Part shown: positions 356-30,737 of the stretch, piece by piece
Position numbering within the stretch: the stretch's first letter is position 1
Layout of the letters: the number at the start of each line of letters is the position of its first letter
NCBI GenBank assembly: GCA_964017185.1
Contig: OZ024875.1
Location: forward strand, 65,777,043 to 65,841,042
DNA: 64,000 nt
Reading direction: 5' to 3'
From: Rugalucina vietnamica
Taxonomy: Eukaryota > Mollusca > Bivalvia > Lucinida > Lucinidae
Made by a program: the position numbers and the translations under genes
Notes under the pieces: generated by a model
What the model was told of the DNA's origin: nothing
The model's input: the letters and a program-made list of their open reading frames with translations, nothing else
Databases searched by the model: none

Positions 356-2535
356 ATGTTACATGTATAAACAAATCCATATTAATATTTTTAATAATGA
401 TTATCACTTAAATTGCTTAAATTACACACTAATGCTAAAACAAGATTTATTCTGCGACACTTTTGATGTCTTGTGTTGACGTCGCGTTATTCTGTCGCTC
501 ATTATTGGATGCATCATGATAACAACATCAAATGATGTTCAGTATGAACCGCATTATATGACAACCCGTCTTCGGGGTTTCCGACAACGTCCGACACAAA
601 CCAGCCTATCCAGACACAGAAGAAAGCTAAGTATTACGAATCAAATAAGTAGAGGAATCGCACAACTTGCGTCTCTTGTGTCAGTTACTGCAAAGCTGAT
701 GCGCGTCTTTGTTATCGCACATGCGAAAATCCGACGCGGCTCAAATTGATCCCTGTAATATATCGTTTAATTATCTTTAGAACATTACTGCACGTGCCGC
801 AGAGAACGGGTTGTGGCGACCTCTTAGCAGTAGGTCCTAGCCCAGCTTGTAAAATGACAATGCTTTATCAATTCGTGTTCATAAATTCCACCTGTATGAT
901 TTCAATTATTTTCTTTTATATGACTCGAGGAATCATAATTAAGTCTCTTTAAGACACCAGATACCACAGTCTTGTACCAACGGCAAAAAAATAAAACTAA
1001 TGCTTCGGTGCATTATCTGCGCTTTAAGTAAATTTGACAATTTGATTTTTATAGTAAGGTAAAGTCCTAATAAATTATATAAAGATGCAATTTGCCTGAT
1101 CAAATTGTATTTCGTCTTATTTCTGCTTGTATCCTTTACAATGATAATGAACAGAAATTCAGCTAAACAATTCTTGATTAAATCTATCTGTATATATCTT
1201 TTAATAACACACAATGGCACTTACATGCCAATATTTCACGGGGATCACACATCAACGTTTTGTTATCGTTGCAAGATCATTGTTCATTTAATTTGTTTTA
1301 ATGTCATCTACGCGCGCCTCATGAGATATCATCTTTATCGCTTATGAATACAATACTCCTTAAACTGTTAAAATCCTACATAGGCAGGTGCGGATGATAA
1401 CGGACTAGGAAAAACAGGAATCAATCAGAATACCGTATCAATCCAATCAACGATTAATTTTTTGTATGAAATATTTGATGCTGGTTATTGCCTCTTCAAA
1501 GAATACATAGAGCTAAAAATACGATTAAATGCCCAAGAGATGTTTCATGTATAACGTGTGCAGCCTTAACCCTGTGCATCTACAAAATAGAGGGAGTGAT
1601 AGTGAGGCTTATGCGGTCATCACTTTATTTTTAAAAATCATACAAGCTCTATTTGTATTCAATTGTTTACGTATGACTATGGTTAGAAATGATGGCTTAT
1701 CAGAAATGGCTTATCAGAAATGATTTTTCTTCTGCAATCAAAAGCATGCATTCCTTTTTGGTTTGGGATATTTTATTTTATTTTATAAATTAAAACATAA
1801 CTTAATTACTTTAATGGAAGATATAGTCAGAATGATGTCAAGTATAACACATCTTAAGTAGAGTTTTAGATAATAAACTAATGAAAAATTTAGAAAGTGA
1901 AACTTGAATCTTGGAATCAAAATACCAAACTGTCAAGAAAAATACATTTACGGCACTAACTTTGGATTTCATCCATGTGTCAAATTGAAATCCAGCATCT
2001 AATTTTACCAAACATACCAATTTATTTTTCATAATGTAGTTTTTGTTACAGGCTTATTTCAGCGCAATACAACGATTAAATTTAAGCAGTTATTTACACG
2101 AATAATATTTCCACAGGGACTCTTTAACAAATCTAATAATATATGTAGTTTGTTCTTGTCTTTGGTTAGAATTCCCATAATTGAAATCATTCAAGTTATC
2201 CGAGGAGTTCATATTTCTCTTCAATTCTGTAATAAACTTGTGGATACTCTTTGATTTACGTGGCACGCGCAGTTAAAGAAGTTGAGAAGCTAAAACATCT
2301 TATTTTGTCTCGACTGACATTAGTACTGTCATGACAGATTAAACTTAAATCGAATCTACTTGGCACTAATGCTCTTCCGTAGTCACGTCTTGTCATAATC
2401 ATCGTGATTGACGAGTTAAATGTTTATCATCTGTAAAGAACAAAAAAAAATAAACTATTTGAGCCGCGGAAGAATTTGAGCTTCTGTTTGGTGCTACTTT
2501 AAATTAAGACCCTCCCTCAGTAAGCAATCTATTCA
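356..2535. other. Unassigned AT-rich DNA
   Basis: I see no recognisable gene, RNA or complete repeat here. Several open frames of 60-93 codons occur on both strands, but they overlap one another, have no domain-like composition and look like chance frames in AT-rich DNA. Confidence 0.5.
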
Positions 2536-3232
2536 GCAGTACAAGAAGCCAATGATCAGGAAAAGGCGCAATCAAAAATAATTTCCCACTCCAAAAACCG
2601 AAGTGGGAAAAAAAACTAAATTGACAATTAGATACTGTACTAAGAAAACATATTGTAAGCCGATTGAGAAGCTATTCCCCAATAGACGGCCACTCAGTTA
2701 CCTTAACCTAACTAAAACTAAAAACACAAGAATTCGCCACTAAGACATAAAACGATAAGAACCACAACAGAAGTATCGCCTTGGAACGATCAGTAATATA
2801 AAATTACTGGCGGGCTTAAACTAGTTTTGCATGTCAATAAAAAACTAAATTAACAATCAGGTACTTAGTCCATGAAAACATATCGTAAGCCGAATGAGCA
2901 GCTATTTTTCCAATTGGTGACCGCTCAATTACCTAAAAGAACCACCACAGAAGTATCGCCTTGGAACGATCAGTAATATAGAATAACTGGCGGGCTTAAA
3001 TCGATTTTACATGGCCATAACCTCACCTTCAGCTTCTGCAGTGGTTCATAACATTTAGTTAGTTCTTCGTTCCTCGTGTGAATCTCTAACTAGTATAGTC
3101 ACTGAATCACCAAGAACAAACAAATAAATCATGATAAACACCCTGACGAATTAAAAACGAGGACTCACAGATTGAGTAAGCTGCCCCGATGATGGAGATC
3201 CGTTGGCGCCGAATAACTTACTAACTCCGAAG
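2536..3232 (+). repeat. Repeat A copy, left part, with internal partial duplication
   Basis: Starts at the fixed terminus (GTACAAGAAG) and runs through the body to the CCGAATAACTTACTAACTCC segment. A second partial body (about 2838-2995) repeats the stretch ending in GGCGGGCTTAAA, so module 1 is partly duplicated in tandem. The copy is interrupted after 3232 by a separate insertion and resumes at 3646. Many substitutions relative to other copies suggest it is old. Confidence 0.8.
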
Positions 3233-3633
3233 TAGACGGAATATTTCCATCGGTATTCCGTTAGACCTCTCCATACCAGATATATGACGCAGATTAATAA
3301 AATATTCATGTTTTCTGTTGAAAATAATCACATACGTCTATAAATAGATAAGGGGAGACTACTGTAAAATATGAGACGAAAAAGTAGAAAATCGATTGCT
3401 ATTTGCAAATTTATTGAAATTCAGCAGGCTAACCAGATGTTTACTAAAAGATTTATGCATTTTCGAACAAAACATAACAAAATTTCTAACAATTATCACC
3501 AAATAAAGCAGCTATAAGCTTCTTACGAAATCCATAATCTGTTCGACCATAGTTTAAAGGCAACCTATGCTAAGCTGTCACGGGAGAGGAGCGAGGTCAC
3601 GAAGTGTATCGTAGTGCAGGTTAGCCAGCTGAT
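3233..3633. mobile_element. Unclassified 401-bp insertion with 12-bp target duplication
   Basis: Repeat A is split here. CTAACTCCGAAG occurs at 3221-3232 and again at 3634-3645, and removing the segment plus one copy restores continuity with intact repeat A copies such as those at 35.2 and 54.8 kb. No terminal inverted repeats, tRNA-like boxes or coding sequence were seen. A 12-bp duplication is typical of TPRT retroposition, but the family is not identified. Confidence 0.6.
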
Positions 3634-3889
3634 CTAACTCCGAAGCAAAGTTGGACCCCCGTGGGCCAAGCAACATACAAGAAGCTCCGGCCCTAACCAA
3701 CTAAACTGAATAGCTTTAAGTCGGGGCCATCATAGAGTCTGACGCCCGCTTCACCGGCGTGCAATTAAAGAAGGCAGCATAGTTATCAGCCATGATTGGG
3801 TTAAAACTAAGCATGCAGACTTTCGCATAACATTTAAGTTATAACATATACGTCTGTAAAGTGTAATGATTTTTTTCTGTACTGAACTT
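3634..3889 (+). repeat. Repeat A copy, distal part
   Basis: Continuation of the copy interrupted at 3233. It carries the distal module containing GGGGCCATCATAGAGTCTGA and ends at the TACTGAACTTT segment, matching the far end of the copies at 35.2 and 54.8 kb. Confidence 0.8.
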
Positions 3890-4690
3890 TCCTATAAGTT
3901 TCTTAAATTTGTAAACCAAGTCACCATAAAATTCTGGTTCCGAAAGGTCCTCACGTAAAAGCGTCTTTAATCCAACATTATATTTGGAAATCAATTCGTA
4001 GTGTCTATGATAAAATTTAGAAAATGTTTTTCGAAGTTTATGATACCGATAGCTACTAAGGCAGCTTAGTAGCGAGCTGCTCCCTCACCCCGGGTTTCCA
4101 CGCTGTTTGTTTAGATAGTTCGCATTTAATTTCAGGGACATATTTTCGATAATGATTGTGTCAGTCCCTGGTCATTGTTTACTTCTAATGCCTACTGTGC
4201 TCATATTTAATTTTAGCGTAATATTTGGCTCTTATCATTGCAGCTTTCTATTTTATCAAAACTTTGAATATTTGATGCTTATTCAAAGCAAAATTAAAAT
4301 AATATACTTTATGCCACCCAGTATTTGATTGTCTAGGATTTGGGGACAATTCAGTGAATGAATTCCTGTACAGTAATTATCTTGATTGATTAAAATTGTC
4401 ATCAATAGTATACTTTTCTTGTCCTGTTCTAAGTGATAAAGTTTTATTGCTTTTTAACATTAACTCATCCACTTTTATCATGTTTGGACATTTATATACA
4501 GTTGATAAACTGTGATAAAATGGATGCTAAATTCCATAAACATTCGAAACTGCTGAATGCATACAATATCTTCAAAGATATGGGAAATCCAAAAAATTTG
4601 ATTAATTTGTGAAATAAGATGTTATCTGTAACTTGGATGCATTCAACAGGTACGCATAAATTTTATATCATGGTTTATATCGATATAACT
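3890..4690. other. Unassigned AT-rich DNA
   Basis: No gene or repeat recognised. It contains a short inverted stretch around 4050-4082 (GCTACTAAGGCAGCTTAGTAGC) that could fold as a hairpin. Confidence 0.4.
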
Positions 4691-24600: not shown

Positions 24601-25221
24601 ATTGATTTTTTTTGTACAGGCCTAATCTGTGATTTTTCAGAAGAAAAAAATCTACATTTATTTATTATATCCTTATGGTATTTAGGGCAAGGGTCTAAGG
24701 CCTTATGCACTTGTCATTTGTAACCATGGGCCCTAGCCCGAGGGAATAGCGTGGACTTTGACTTTTTGTCCAGCCAAACTCTGCTGTAAGCCCCACTGCT
24801 CTGTAAAAACCACTGCTGTTTTCCCCAGTAGCCTGCTATCCTTTCATTTCGCAGCCCTTTTCGCCTGTATAAAGCAAACCCCGGGTAATTCCACCCACTG
24901 CCATGGCAAAACTTTGGTCAAAGCTCCACTATTGCCACGGCTATCCCCCTCCCTCCCCTGTGGGTGGGGACCGTGGTTTTGTATGTCTAGTGCATTATAC
25001 ATACATTTTTCTTTGCTGGACAAAAAGCTTTTGCCTCTACATGGGAATGGGATAAGGTGGAAGGACAGGTGTCGGGATGATGCATCAGGCCAAATAACTA
25101 CTTAAAATTACCTTTTTGTCTGTAAAACCTGTTTGTCAAGGCACACACAATATAGTCATGTCCATGCAGAAGCAATTTTTACACACTAATTCAGTCTGGT
25201 ACAGCTATCTATCTATCTCCA
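24601..25221. other. Unassigned DNA with a small inverted repeat
   Basis: CTTTTTGTCCAGC at 24763-24775 recurs inverted at 25015-25027, so this could be a small foldback or MITE of about 265 bp, but no target duplication is clear. A 115-codon frame (24758-25105) spans it, is rich in C, P and L, has no recognisable domain and is probably accidental. A (TCTA)n stretch borders the LINE at 25221. Confidence 0.35.
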
Positions 25222-26019
25222 TATAATGGCCCACTTTCTACTGTTTATTTGAATGTCAAGGACGATAGTTTCTATGGGTAGGTCAAGTTCAAGGTCATGT
25301 CGCCTTCTTGCAGGTAAACTGGATCTCACATATGCTATGAGACCACCACCAGATGAATTTCTGTCATTCCGAAAAGTTTTGTAATTTGGAATGTTAAATA
25401 AATTAATATTGAAGGTGCTGTCTAACTTAGTTTCGGCAAAGAAGCACACATCTGTAAGTTTGTCATATAGTATGTCACTAATTTCTGCCAGTTTGTAACG
25501 CAAGCTGTTTATATTTAAGTATGACACAATGACATTGTTTTTGTGTTTATGCCTTACTTTCTTAAGTTCTGTAAAGGGGTCGAAATTCATTTCCTCGTCT
25601 CTGTCCCCGGAAACGCCCGAGATGTTGAGTTCTACAGAGCCTTCAAGTTGAGAAGTGTTTATGGATGAAGGGAGGTAACTCGAATTAAATGTTTGATTTA
25701 GGCTGAAGAAAGAATCACTGAACTGTGGAAGGAGGCAGGGTTCACAGAACCAGCTTTCCCAAGAGTTACCCAGTCGGAAGTATTCAGGTTTCGTCATGTT
25801 TACACATACACGATGTGACCATATATCGCAGCTTTCACACTGCAGTCCATGTTGGTTTGCTCTCACAGACTTTGAACAGGTCCCACAGGGAAATCTCACT
25901 GGGCCCGGATTTGTGGAGATATCACCACATAGTATCAGAATAGTGTGGAAACACAGTATATTTGATGGACATTTCACATATGGAGTCCTGAAACCATACG
26001 CTGATTTGTTTGCTTTCAT
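25213..26019 (-). CDS. LINE ORF, N-terminal half: NPGP motif, PHD finger, start of APE endonuclease
   Basis: Begins MKANKSAYGF at the TGATG overlap with the upstream small ORF. Residues 32-40 read GDISTNPGP after a hydrophobic stretch, resembling a 2A ribosome-skipping motif with S in place of the usual E. Residues 45-95 form a C4HC3 PHD-type finger (C45, C48, C61, C64, H69, C72, C92, C95). From about residue 165, the apurinic-type endonuclease starts (YLNINSLRYK; AETKLD with the metal-binding E). The protein is cut off at SRKWAII by the inversion; the last residues (WR) are flank. The remaining endonuclease and RT lie on the plus strand from 26264. Confidence 0.85.
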   Translation of the reverse strand: MKANKSAYGFRTPYVKCPSNILCFHTILILCGDISTNPGPVRFPCGTCSKSVRANQHGLQCESCDIWSHRVCVNMTKPEYFRLGNSWESWFCEPCLLPQFSDSFFSLNQTFNSSYLPSSINTSQLEGSVELNISGVSGDRDEEMNFDPFTELKKVRHKHKNNVIVSYLNINSLRYKLAEISDILYDKLTDVCFFAETKLDSTFNINLFNIPNYKTFRNDRNSSGGGLIAYVRSSLPARRRHDLELDLPIETIVLDIQINSRKWAIIWR

Positions 26020-26246
26020 CAGTTTGTTTGAATCAGCTGATCGGGGAATCCCCCTCGCTGTACGAAAACCGAAAGTCCATAGGTTTTGCTGTAATGGCTA
26101 TGCCCTTCCCAGTTTCGGCTCAGGATAAAATCAGATACGTTTAAAAGTTTATTTTGAGCTATAAAATAATTCTCTCTGGGATAAAATGTGGTTAAAATCG
26201 TCAGAAATATAAGTAAAATTGATGACAAAAAAATTTTAGCCGCCAT
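26019..26246 (-). CDS. LINE upstream small ORF with hydrophobic N-terminus
   Basis: A 75-codon frame starting ATGGCGGCTAAAAT. It begins MAAKIF followed by a run of about 14 hydrophobic residues (LSSILLIFLTILTTF) resembling a signal or membrane segment, then a polar region ending LIQTN. Its stop codon overlaps the next ORF's start in TGATG (26021-26017). A longer frame from 26282 exists only because of the inversion junction, so 26246 is the better start. No known domain. It is only one copy, so coding is not proven. Confidence 0.45.
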   Translation of the reverse strand: MAAKIFLSSILLIFLTILTTFYPRENYFIAQNKLLNVSDFILSRNWEGHSHYSKTYGLSVFVQRGGFPDQLIQTN

Positions 26247-26399
26247 GTTGCTATTGGCACGGTTATCGTCCTTGACATTCAAATAAACAGTAGAAAGTGG
26301 GCCATTATAGGGGCATATAGACCCCCATCAGTTAAGGATAGTATATTTACTGATATCCTTACAAAAGGACTTGATAAGATCTCAATACATTTTGACAAT

Positions 26400-28841
26400 A
26401 TGATACTCATAGGGGATCTTAATTATGACTGTCTGGATAAGACAAAATCTGAAACTCTGACTGATATATGTGATATATTTGATTTTAAAAATCTGATTAA
26501 GGACCCAACATGCTTTATGAAAAACTGTTCACCTTCCCTTGTGGATGTGGTCCTCACCAATAAATCACAATTTTGTTTTAACCCTATCAACTTTGGGTGT
26601 GGCATCAGTGACTGGCACAACATGATAGGTGTGCTGGTCAAGGGTGCTGCCCCCAAGGTTGAGAAACAAAAAATTAAATATAGAAGTTATAAAAATTTTG
26701 ATGAAAAGTGTTTCAACGATGACATCAGCCAGGTGCCATTTCATGTAGCTCATGTGTTTGAGGATGTTGATGACATCTACTGGGCACATGAGTGGCTCCT
26801 GAATGATGTCATAAATCAACATGCACCAATAAAAGAGAGAATTTCAAAACCCAAAAAACCAGCCTTTATAAATGGTGATCTGAGGCGAGCTGTCTTTAAG
26901 AAAAAAATGCTTTTCAACAAATATAAAAAATGCCCATCTGGTCTGAACTTGGATAATTACAGAAAACAAAGAAATGCAGTTACAAAATTGAAAAAACAGT
27001 CTATGAGGCATTACTTTTTTGAGCGTTGTTCTGGCGGCCCTAAATCTAAAGATTTCTGGCCCACTATCAAACCTTTTCTATCTAAGAAGGGGTCTGGTGG
27101 TGGATCAGAAATCATTCTTTCAGAAAATGATAAAATTATCTCGGATCAGAAGGAGGTGTGTAATGTTTTCAATTCATATTTTGTTAATGTGGCAAAGGAC
27201 ATAGGTAAGGACTGTACTCAGTATGACAGAGACTTCTCCACACATCCCAGCATTCAAAATATTCTTAAAAATGGTCATTTTGGTGATAAAAAATTCTCAT
27301 TTCGGCCCATTTCTGAAAATGAAACTAGAAAGATTTTCTCAAAGTTAAATGTCAAAAAGTCCACTGGTGTAGACAATATTTCAGCAAAACTTTTAAAGGC
27401 ATGTGCTCCAAGTCTCAGCCATGCTGTGTCCAGTCTTATAAATTTGTCATTTGCTAAGGGTATTTTTCCCAGTAGGCTTAAAAACGCACAAGTTATACCT
27501 TTGTATAAAAAGAAATATTCTTTAAACAAAGAAAATTATAGACCTGTTAGCATACTGCCCACTACCTCAAAAATCTTTGAAAGAGTCATACATGAGCAGT
27601 TATCTGAGTATCTAGATGATATGTTCAATCCTTTTTTAGCAGCCTTTAGAAAAGGCTATGGATGCCAAACTACCCTGCTACGCCTACTTGAAGACTGGCG
27701 GAGTGCCTTGGACAAACATGAGTATGTTGCTGCAATACTCATGGATTTGTCCAAGGCATTTGACTGTCTTCCTCATAACTTACTGTTGGCAAAACTTCAA
27801 GCATATGGAGTGTCTCAAGATGCAGTGAAACTTATTGAAAGTTATTTAAGTGACAGGAGTCAGCAGATTAGAATGGGATCTAACACTAGTGATTGGGAAA
27901 ACCTCACTAAGGGGGTCCCTCAGGGTTCTATATTAGGCCCCTTACTTTTTAATGTATTCATCAACGACATATTTTATATTGTTGAAAAATGTTCACTATA
28001 TAATTATGCAGATGATAACACCCTTGCTTATATTCACAAGAAAATAGAAATTCTGCATCAAGTGTTAGTCAAGGAAAGTCTTTCATTGATTCAGTGGTTT
28101 GAAAATAATCTCATGAAAGCAAATCCTGATAAGTTTCAGGCTATTTGTGTTGGTAAAAGAACTTTTGATGCTATTACATCATTTCAACTGGGTAACACTA
28201 AGATTACATGTGAGGACAAGGTTTCTCTGCTAGGTGTTACTTTAGATGTTCAATTGAATTTTAAGGACCATATATCTCAAATTTGTACTAAAGCATCTCA
28301 GCAGCTAGCTGTTCTTAAGCGCATAGGAAAGTTTTTAACTAAACAAGGCAAATTAATGATTTATAAATCTTTCATAATGTCAAATTTTAATCATTGTCCA
28401 ATAGTATGGCATTTTTGCAATCAGTCAAGTGCAAATAAGATGGAGAAGATCCAGGAGAGGGCCCTCAGATTCATCTGTGATGATTTTGAGTCTCCTCTGC
28501 CGGATCTTCTACAACAAAATGGAGTACTACCTCTGCATATCAGCAGAATGAAACTTATGGCTGGGGAAGTTTTTAAAATTGTTAACAACATAGCTCCATC
28601 CTATTTGCATGACTTGATAAGTCTTAAGTCCTCTCCCTATGATTTCAGATCTGAGAAGCAGGCACAGATCCCTCGTGTAAACAGTACCAGGTACGGCTTA
28701 AGGAGCTTCCGGTATGAGGCGGCCCGGATCTGGAACAGCCTCCCAAATGAGTTGAGATTGGCAGAATCTTATCCTCAGTTCCGGAGGCTGCTCCGGGCCT
28801 GGGACGGACTCAACTGTAAGTGTCCTTCTTGTTCTGCCTGA
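26400..28841 (+). CDS. LINE ORF, C-terminal part: APE endonuclease end and reverse transcriptase
   Basis: 813 codons from the first ATG; homology in the same frame extends upstream to 26264, overlapping the inverted half. Residues 2-9 contain the endonuclease GDLN motif, with SDWHN as the SDH-type motif further on. The RT follows: ILMDLSKAFD (motif A, catalytic D449), GVPQGSILGPLLF (motif B) and YADD at 536-539 (motif C), then a thumb and C-terminal region ending in CKCPSCSA. This part has no stops or frameshifts, so the insertion may be young, but the inversion separates it from its start and makes the locus non-autonomous. Confidence 0.92.
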   Translation: MILIGDLNYDCLDKTKSETLTDICDIFDFKNLIKDPTCFMKNCSPSLVDVVLTNKSQFCFNPINFGCGISDWHNMIGVLVKGAAPKVEKQKIKYRSYKNFDEKCFNDDISQVPFHVAHVFEDVDDIYWAHEWLLNDVINQHAPIKERISKPKKPAFINGDLRRAVFKKKMLFNKYKKCPSGLNLDNYRKQRNAVTKLKKQSMRHYFFERCSGGPKSKDFWPTIKPFLSKKGSGGGSEIILSENDKIISDQKEVCNVFNSYFVNVAKDIGKDCTQYDRDFSTHPSIQNILKNGHFGDKKFSFRPISENETRKIFSKLNVKKSTGVDNISAKLLKACAPSLSHAVSSLINLSFAKGIFPSRLKNAQVIPLYKKKYSLNKENYRPVSILPTTSKIFERVIHEQLSEYLDDMFNPFLAAFRKGYGCQTTLLRLLEDWRSALDKHEYVAAILMDLSKAFDCLPHNLLLAKLQAYGVSQDAVKLIESYLSDRSQQIRMGSNTSDWENLTKGVPQGSILGPLLFNVFINDIFYIVEKCSLYNYADDNTLAYIHKKIEILHQVLVKESLSLIQWFENNLMKANPDKFQAICVGKRTFDAITSFQLGNTKITCEDKVSLLGVTLDVQLNFKDHISQICTKASQQLAVLKRIGKFLTKQGKLMIYKSFIMSNFNHCPIVWHFCNQSSANKMEKIQERALRFICDDFESPLPDLLQQNGVLPLHISRMKLMAGEVFKIVNNIAPSYLHDLISLKSSPYDFRSEKQAQIPRVNSTRYGLRSFRYEAARIWNSLPNELRLAESYPQFRRLLRAWDGLNCKCPSCSA

Positions 28842-29466
28842 TTTCTTATTTTGAAAATTCTTTGTTCAGTTTTATTTTATTCTTTGTTCATTTTTTTACT
28901 TGTGTTATGTTCTTTCCATTTTCATTCAGTTATGTCAAAACCCTAAATTTTTATGTGTCATCTTCTTATTTTACAGGTTGCTGAGACCTGGGATGCTTTG
29001 TCCCACAGTTTCCTTTGATTAAATTTTTTAGATTTCTCCCTCCTCCCCTTTTTGGTCCTTGTCTGTAAGGAGCTACTGTGGGAGCCTACCCTTTGTGGTC
29101 TCCTTGCTGACCCCAAATTTAATTTTATTTTGACTTGCACCTATTTTAAGTTTTCGTTTTCGAGCAAAGGTAACCATTGGGATCCAGGCATCTTTGTCTC
29201 TATAAACACTTCAAATAACTATATGTGTTATTATTATATTAATTTTAAAAAATACAACAATTTGCTTGCCGTGATATAAAAGTACTTCCTATTATCTGTG
29301 ATTCATCTTGTAAATAATCGTGTTTATATACATGTGCATGCTGTGATATACTCTGTTACTTTTAATTATTTTACATATGTTTGTCGAAATAAAAGCCCTA
29401 CTGGGCTTATGTTGTAGTTAATCATATTCGACGTTAAATAAAGTTTCTATGTCTATGTCTATGTCT

Positions 29467-30737
29467 ACTGCCATACGCCCTCGCGGACATTCTAGTCAGC
29501 TTCCTGATATTGTTTGACTGTCTCTCCTGTAATGGTGTTTTCTTCCTCTTGACATCCGAGAACTACTGCTTGTGGCAATGTCTTTTATGCATCCTTGACA
29601 CTGTATATTTCATGCTGAGCATAATTATTTTACACAACTACATAATGTTTTCTTCATTTATGCATGCAAAAGTTACATTTGAACAGATAATGTACACATT
29701 TATCCTCAGTTTTGTCACTCTAATCCAAGGTTTACCATTATCACAATTTTTACGCCAAAAGTTGTCATTCAGCCTTGAACTTGGGGATCCTTCGTTATTG
29801 CGAAATGCAGAAAAATAAGTAAATTCTTTCTTCAAAAGTTATTGATTGGATTTCTATAAAATACTTAAAGTATTTAATTGTATATCTTCAGAATTTTGTA
29901 TGAACGGGATAAAATTAGAGAAAACGGTAAAATAAAATTATTGGTCATCATTATGCAGTGCTTACTCCCTTATTACTTAGATACAAATTGAGTTTCTTCC
30001 CTTGCTAATAACATTTTGCCAATTTACCATAAACTATCTAAAAAACACACGGGTTTGATTGCAGAAATGAAAAGCCAAGGTCTTTTGTATGCTTTTTAAC
30101 CAAAACCTGTGAATAAAACAGGTCCATCATGAGAGAAAACAACACTTCAAAATTTACAATGGAAGTCTATGGGAAAATCGCTCCAGAGGGTGTTTTTAAA
30201 ACTAGCTGCAACATTCATATTAAATACATTTTACCAGAAAAAAGGGTCATCTGCCTTGTTTTAGGACCAAATCTATTAGGAAAACTGAAAATTATTTATT
30301 TTTTTGACAGACGATGTATCACCATTTGCAGGTTTTGCATGGTTCTTAGCAAGAGCTGTACTTAAACACTTCCGACCATTTTTACATAAACAATGGTCGA
30401 AATTAAAGATGATGTTAATTTCACAAAAAAAACAACCCCTTTCACTCGAGCTTGTCGTTTCATCATTTAGGTCAGTCAAGTTTTTGTGTAAAATGTAACA
30501 TTATTATACTATTTTAGAACTGAAACAGTGTCCTAGGTGCCAAGTGTTCTACAAATCTATTCAGTATTAACTGTAGGTCACCTCTTCTGATAAAAAATAT
30601 TTGTTTATTTCAAAATTCTTTGCACAACATATTCAATGCATATTAAGAACACACACTTGAAATACGATAGGAACAAAAGCAATTTTTTATTAATTTTAGT
30701 AGTTACCTTTTGGTATCTTAATGGCCAAAATTTCACA
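29467..30737. other. Unassigned DNA with a decayed 186-bp-array fragment
   Basis: GGTCCATCATGAGAGAAAA near 30120-30140 and ACACGGGTTT near 30045 match the reverse complement of the 18.6-kb array monomer, so a decayed minus-strand fragment lies at about 30040-30145. Frames of 64-102 codons at 29510-30498 overlap on both strands and have no recognisable domain. Confidence 0.4.

Follow-up and report, generated by a model that had tools for sequence, protein, structure and literature searches.

The region examined, referred to here as the window, was a stretch of 64,000 nucleotides from the bivalve Rugalucina vietnamica (C7:65777043-65841042; genome 1.09 Gb). A single long interspersed nuclear element (LINE), in two pieces on opposite strands, spans positions 25222-29467 of the window (Table 1). 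An earlier note on this DNA had placed the 5' portion of the element, with a PHD finger and the start of the endonuclease, on the minus strand and the remainder on the plus strand, and had proposed twin priming as the origin of the arrangement. It had also advised an alignment with an uninverted copy from the same genome. Such copies, approximately 99% identical to the window LINE, were found, and both parts aligned with one of them, L026, on the strands that had been described; positions 25219-26263 correspond to element positions 1-1046 on the minus strand and positions 26264-29466 to element positions 998-4196 on the plus strand, each with 99.0% identity. The minus-strand part contains the 5' region, a 2A-like motif, the PHD finger and the beginning of the endonuclease, and the plus-strand part contains the remaining endonuclease, the reverse transcriptase (RT) and the 3' untranslated region (UTR). 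Profile matches located the domains in the parts to which the note had assigned them, although the endonuclease match within the minus part was below the Pfam cutoff. The LINE is a young element with its front quarter inverted. Because of the inversion, its reading frame is broken into two open stretches from stop to stop, of 294 and 871 amino acids, the longer of which belongs to the direct 3' part.

Table 1. Features of the inverted LINE and its target site (window positions)
Feature	Position	Strand	Basis
Left CAGCT, one copy of the 5-bp duplication flanking the older repeat fragment	25202..25206		paralog comparison
Left target half (ATCT)3 CCATATA, end of high-copy repeat fragment; last four bases common with LINE	25207..25225		paralog comparison
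Outer-junction microhomology TATA, target/element, putative second priming site	25222..25225		junction comparison
Inverted copy of 46-bp segment, private base A	25222..25267	-	self-alignment, copy comparison
Inverted 5' part of LINE, element 1-1043	25222..26263	-	alignment, profile matches, junction analysis
Inner-junction microhomology TATC, 5' terminus versus element 998-1001	26264..26267		junction comparison
Direct copy of 46-bp segment, private base A	26264..26309	+	self-alignment, copy comparison
Direct 3' part of LINE, element 998 to tail	26264..29467	+	alignment, open reading frames, profile matches
Tail (TCTATG)3TCTA; final TA possibly target	29446..29467	+	sequence reading
Right target half CTGCCATACGCCCTCGCGGACATTCTAGT, core of high-copy repeat	29468..29496		repeat search, paralog comparison
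Right CAGCT, other copy of the 5-bp duplication flanking the older repeat fragment	29497..29501		paralog comparison

An inverted repeat of 54 nucleotides (25214-25267 and 26264-26317, 94% identity) was confirmed. Its inner 46 nucleotides are identical, exactly as had been claimed, and correspond to element positions 998-1043, which are therefore present in both parts. Both window copies of this segment have an A at a position where all seven of the other copies covering it have a C (L002-L007, identical with L024-L029 and counted once, with L055 as the seventh). Because this private A is common to the two copies, insertions from two different donors are unlikely.

The copies L026, L028 and L055 all begin with GATAACCGTGCC (GATAACC) despite different flanks, and therefore the inverted part reaches the 5' terminus of the element. 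The 5' end points inward and abuts the 3' portion, as the earlier note had described, with no bases lost and none added between the 5' terminus and element position 998. The inner-junction TATC could be assigned to either part, since the inverted part, which then extends to 26267, ends with these four bases and the direct part begins with them; by a chance estimate, at least four shared bases occur at only 0.41% of element positions. The corresponding estimate for the outer junction, where TATA is common to the element and the present target, was 1.8%. The target end agreed with the element at 9 of the last 12 bases, which only 0.12% of element positions reach (6 of 8, 0.79%; 7 of 10, 0.48%), and one of the mismatches, judged by eye, is a G-T wobble when the target end is considered as a primer on the RNA. 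Of the limits previously given for the element, 25222-29466, the left one stands, with the four bases from that position common to target and element, and the right one is to be replaced by 29465 or 29467, because the TA preceding CTGCC could belong to the tail or to the target.

The results describe a single event in one genome assembly and are based mostly on the best-scored matches. Clustering of the match lists (best 40 of 606, 12 of 12, 40 of 96, 40 of 189 and 40 of 248 candidates) gave 51 family places, and only the window had parts on opposite strands. For eight of the 51 the comparison covered only the 3' UTR, and C4:5309146 and C4:5318843 possibly represent a single split copy, so that 1 of 51 applies to the listed places and should not be taken as a rate. 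Relatives at 69-74% identity, one place at 83%, the match of the window's own 46-bp overlap and small internal inverted-repeat matches were left out. In the search with the 5' part, for which all 12 of 12 candidates were scored, the 5' part was again opposite to the 3' part in the window alone, and no other scored place held the whole of either flank query (best 40 of 2434 and best 40 of 254 candidates). Copies sharing both junction and flanks, which the note had named as the sign of a segmental duplication, were absent among these scored places, and segmental duplication of an inverted copy was rejected on this evidence.

The target site and its paralogs

The flanks of the LINE are a multicopy repeat, and the target as it was before the insertion was reconstructed from paralogous copies of that repeat. 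Fifteen paralogous loci were retrieved, of which 13 could be aligned to the site; L022 and L023 match only portions of the flanks. Twelve of the 13 are contiguous through the boundary between GGTACAGCT and TCCTG, and the remaining one, L020, has a few different bases there. Among the contiguous paralogs, one base is changed within CAGCT in L014 and L019 and one just before CAGCT in L013. Between the flanks, the LINE in the window is bordered by ATCTATCTATCTCCATATA at its left end and by CTGCCATACGCCCTCGCGGACATTCTAGT at its right end, and these are the two halves of one high-copy sequence. Its core CATACGCCCTCGCGGACATTCTAG (a 24-mer, 29472-29495) was found at 1,410 places with up to three mismatches, compared with 0 for the control. 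The core was preceded by an ATCT-type repeat in 8 of 11 loci and by a TTTC-type repeat in 2 of 11, and on the other side the loci diverge at varying points. The high-copy repeat is probably the terminal portion, including the tail, of a retroposon truncated at its 5' side.

The intact target string ATCTCCATATACTGCCATACGCCCTCGCGG occurs at three places in the genome. Its presence elsewhere, together with the contiguity of the paralogs, indicates that the repeat fragment was inserted first, with duplication of CAGCT, and that the LINE later entered this older fragment within CTCCATATACTGCC. A target-site duplication was looked for around 25221 and 29467, as the earlier note had advised. No more than two bases are common to the remainder on the left, CTCCATATA, and the one on the right, TACTGCC, and therefore the duplication made by the LINE itself is TA or less. 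A 15-bp duplication, suggested by a flank-alignment overlap of that length in the paralogs, was rejected because the right flank agrees only roughly over it and the exact shared word, CAGCT, is part of the older repeat fragment. Among the paralogs, two copies of the flanking repeat (L017 and L018, C8:53139000-53149000) are near neighbors on opposite strands; they share an additional insert and have identical match scores, a pattern resembling that of a recent inverted duplication.

Target-site duplications were also scored in 19 of 20 fetched copies of the LINE family; L035, which has no tail, was omitted, and the tails of L027 and L037 were delimited too short. The longest duplication was 6 bp. 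The longest shared words averaged 2.11, compared with 1.61 in shuffled pairings (4.7% of the shuffles reach 2.11), and a shared word of at least 4 bp was present in 3 of the 19 copies, compared with 1.4 expected. With a cruder delimitation, in which the flank of L028 was wrong and the tails of L027, L037 and L041 were too short, the means were 1.79 and 1.49 (17.6% of the shuffles). The family leaves short duplications or none; given the slight excess of short matches, total absence is not claimed.

Origin of the inverted arrangement

The 5' inversions of mammalian L1 are said to have been explained by twin priming by Ostertag and Kazazian in 2001. The arrangement in the window is most probably the product of one retrotransposition event resolved in this way (probability roughly 0.87). 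The LINE would have opened the site within the older repeat fragment, and the bottom strand would have primed a first complementary DNA (cDNA 1) on the (UCUAUG)n tail, which extended to element position 998. The top-strand end, terminating in CTCCATATA-3', would then have annealed in the LINE RNA beside position 1043, through four perfectly paired nucleotides and more imperfect pairing, and primed a second cDNA (cDNA 2) that extended to the 5' end of the RNA. Annealing of the two cDNA ends via TATC/GATA and fill-in would leave the 5' part inverted, the 3' part direct, 46 bp copied twice and almost no target-site duplication. We infer the order of these steps and the use of one and the same RNA molecule.

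Several observations favor twin priming, 1) the inverted part ends at the 5' terminus of the element, 2) the private base is shared by the two copies of the overlap, 3) there is a 4-bp microhomology at both the outer and the inner junction, and 4) the flanks are contiguous in the paralogs, whose empty sites correspond to a simple insertion. The proposal of the earlier note is in this respect upheld. Other observations weigh against it. The target-site duplication is 2 bp or less, whereas in inverted L1 inserts it is mostly 10-20 bp (PMC4245944). According to the same study, no 5' inversions were obtained in cultured cells with ZfL2-1, a zebrafish LINE with 5-bp duplications, and its authors suggest that an overhang of approximately 5 nucleotides is too short for pairing and second priming. 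The 46-bp overlap would require either that cDNA 1 extended beyond the second priming site or that a second RNA took part. The target was read from paralogs and not from an empty allele of the locus itself, and no second inverted copy was found among the 51 listed places or by eye in two further match lists (133 of 3120 and 39 of 21960 candidates).

An overlap of this kind would be obtained easily if the two cDNAs had been primed on two RNAs from the same donor locus, since neither would block the other, and the private base indicates a single donor but not necessarily a single molecule. Such a sub-variant of twin priming needs two RNAs at one site, for which the sequence gives no call, and its likelihood is slight. 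A normal full-length insertion that later suffered two breaks, one of them staggered by 46 nucleotides and filled in, with the 5' part flipped in place, would likewise give this order of parts, the inverted 46-bp duplication and a private base common to its two copies. One break would have to fall exactly at the first base of the element, with no flank carried along, and pairing between the target end and the element at the outer junction is not predicted, which makes inversion after insertion improbable, if a little less so than the use of two RNAs. Least likely of all are two independent insertions or an error of assembly. An error is formally possible when only the assembled sequence is considered, but the other places of the 5' part within the 51 clusters lie in same-strand copies, the private base and the flanks fit a single event, and microhomology precisely at the 5' terminus and with the target is expected from neither two insertions nor misassembly.

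Comparison with other LINEs

In L1 twin priming, microhomologies accompany both the insert ends and the inversion junction; at the 5' junction, approximately 70% of 5'-inverted L1 inserts show 2-5 bp, and just 28 of 605 show none (PMC2912911). The window LINE resembles these inserts in its inverted 5' part, its direct 3' part and the short stretch of element sequence duplicated where the orientation changes, as well as in the microhomology at the 5' and inversion junctions. It differs from them in the size of the target-site duplication, in that the inverted part extends to the 5' terminus of the element, and in that the element encodes PHD finger and endonuclease within a single frame and ends in a TCTATG tail. 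With the CR1/L2-group LINEs, including ZfL2-1, it shares an APE-type endonuclease and RT with no RNase H match, a short repeat tail and perhaps the short target-site duplications, which in that group peak at 3-5 bp (PMC4245944). It differs from this group in its fused frame of 1,190 amino acids with a 2A-like motif, and, in contrast to ZfL2-1 in cultured cells, its family includes an inverted copy.

One 5'-inverted insert of zebrafish Nimb-2_DR has been described (PMC4245944), so that 5' inversion beyond L1 has a precedent and the claim of novelty is weakened. Among the records listed, the literature search found no case of twin priming for an invertebrate or CR1-type LINE, and absence from print is not claimed; two papers only cite twin priming (PMC5389967, PMC2718515) and a third does not mention it (PMC2881922).

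In the papers considered here, 5' inversion is associated with L1 and with 10-20 bp overhangs. The junctions of the present locus bear the signs of twin priming together with a duplication of 2 bp or less, at a target whose sequence is recoverable from paralogs. The pairing may have extended past the stagger. Because 9 of 12 bases agree between target and element, with one wobble in addition, the top strand could have been opened over approximately 12 nucleotides, well beyond the stagger itself. It is tentatively suggested, at slightly less than even odds, that a LINE family cutting nearly blunt can still twin-prime and that pairing, not overhang length, is decisive. Either the top strand became single-stranded beyond the stagger or the quality of pairing outweighs the length of the overhang, and one case is insufficient to decide. 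If true, near-blunt twin priming would contradict the suggestion (PMC4245944) that short overhangs prevent 5' inversion. The question would become testable by counting inverted copies in genomes with many LINEs that leave short duplications.

Coding capacity and other copies of the element

The uninverted full-length copies L026 and L028 each have one frame of 1,190 amino acids encoding PHD finger, endonuclease and RT. In L026, the frame matched the Pfam PHD, APE-type endonuclease and RT families; the PHD score was 23.8, just under the cutoff of 24 that the window (26.2) exceeds, and the endonuclease score was 24.7 bits, compared with a cutoff of 24.5. No RNase H family was matched in L026 at E values up to 0.1. 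The Rfam model of the UnaL2-type 3' hairpin of L2 elements was sought as well, and at E values up to 1 there was only a chance match to KCNQ1OT1_1, far under the gathering score.

In the window (25222-26097, minus strand), L026 and L028, the motif GDISTNPGP was found between a hydrophobic stretch and the PHD finger. It resembles the 2A ribosome-skipping motif, the consensus of which usually has E where S stands here. By way of such a motif, the single frame of the LINE might yield two proteins.

Several copies have structural peculiarities of their own. The first 29 bases of L028 are present twice in tandem at its 5' end. L055 (with C11:26785253-26786460) has an intact 5' end and a deletion of element positions 1107-2970, joined at a microhomology of T or TT. 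L056 (C10:25881400-25883400) is a LINE copy broken by an insert with the ends AGGGATGTCA and TGACATCCCT, flanked on both sides by approximately 9-10 bp of repeated LINE sequence; the insert looks like a DNA transposon.

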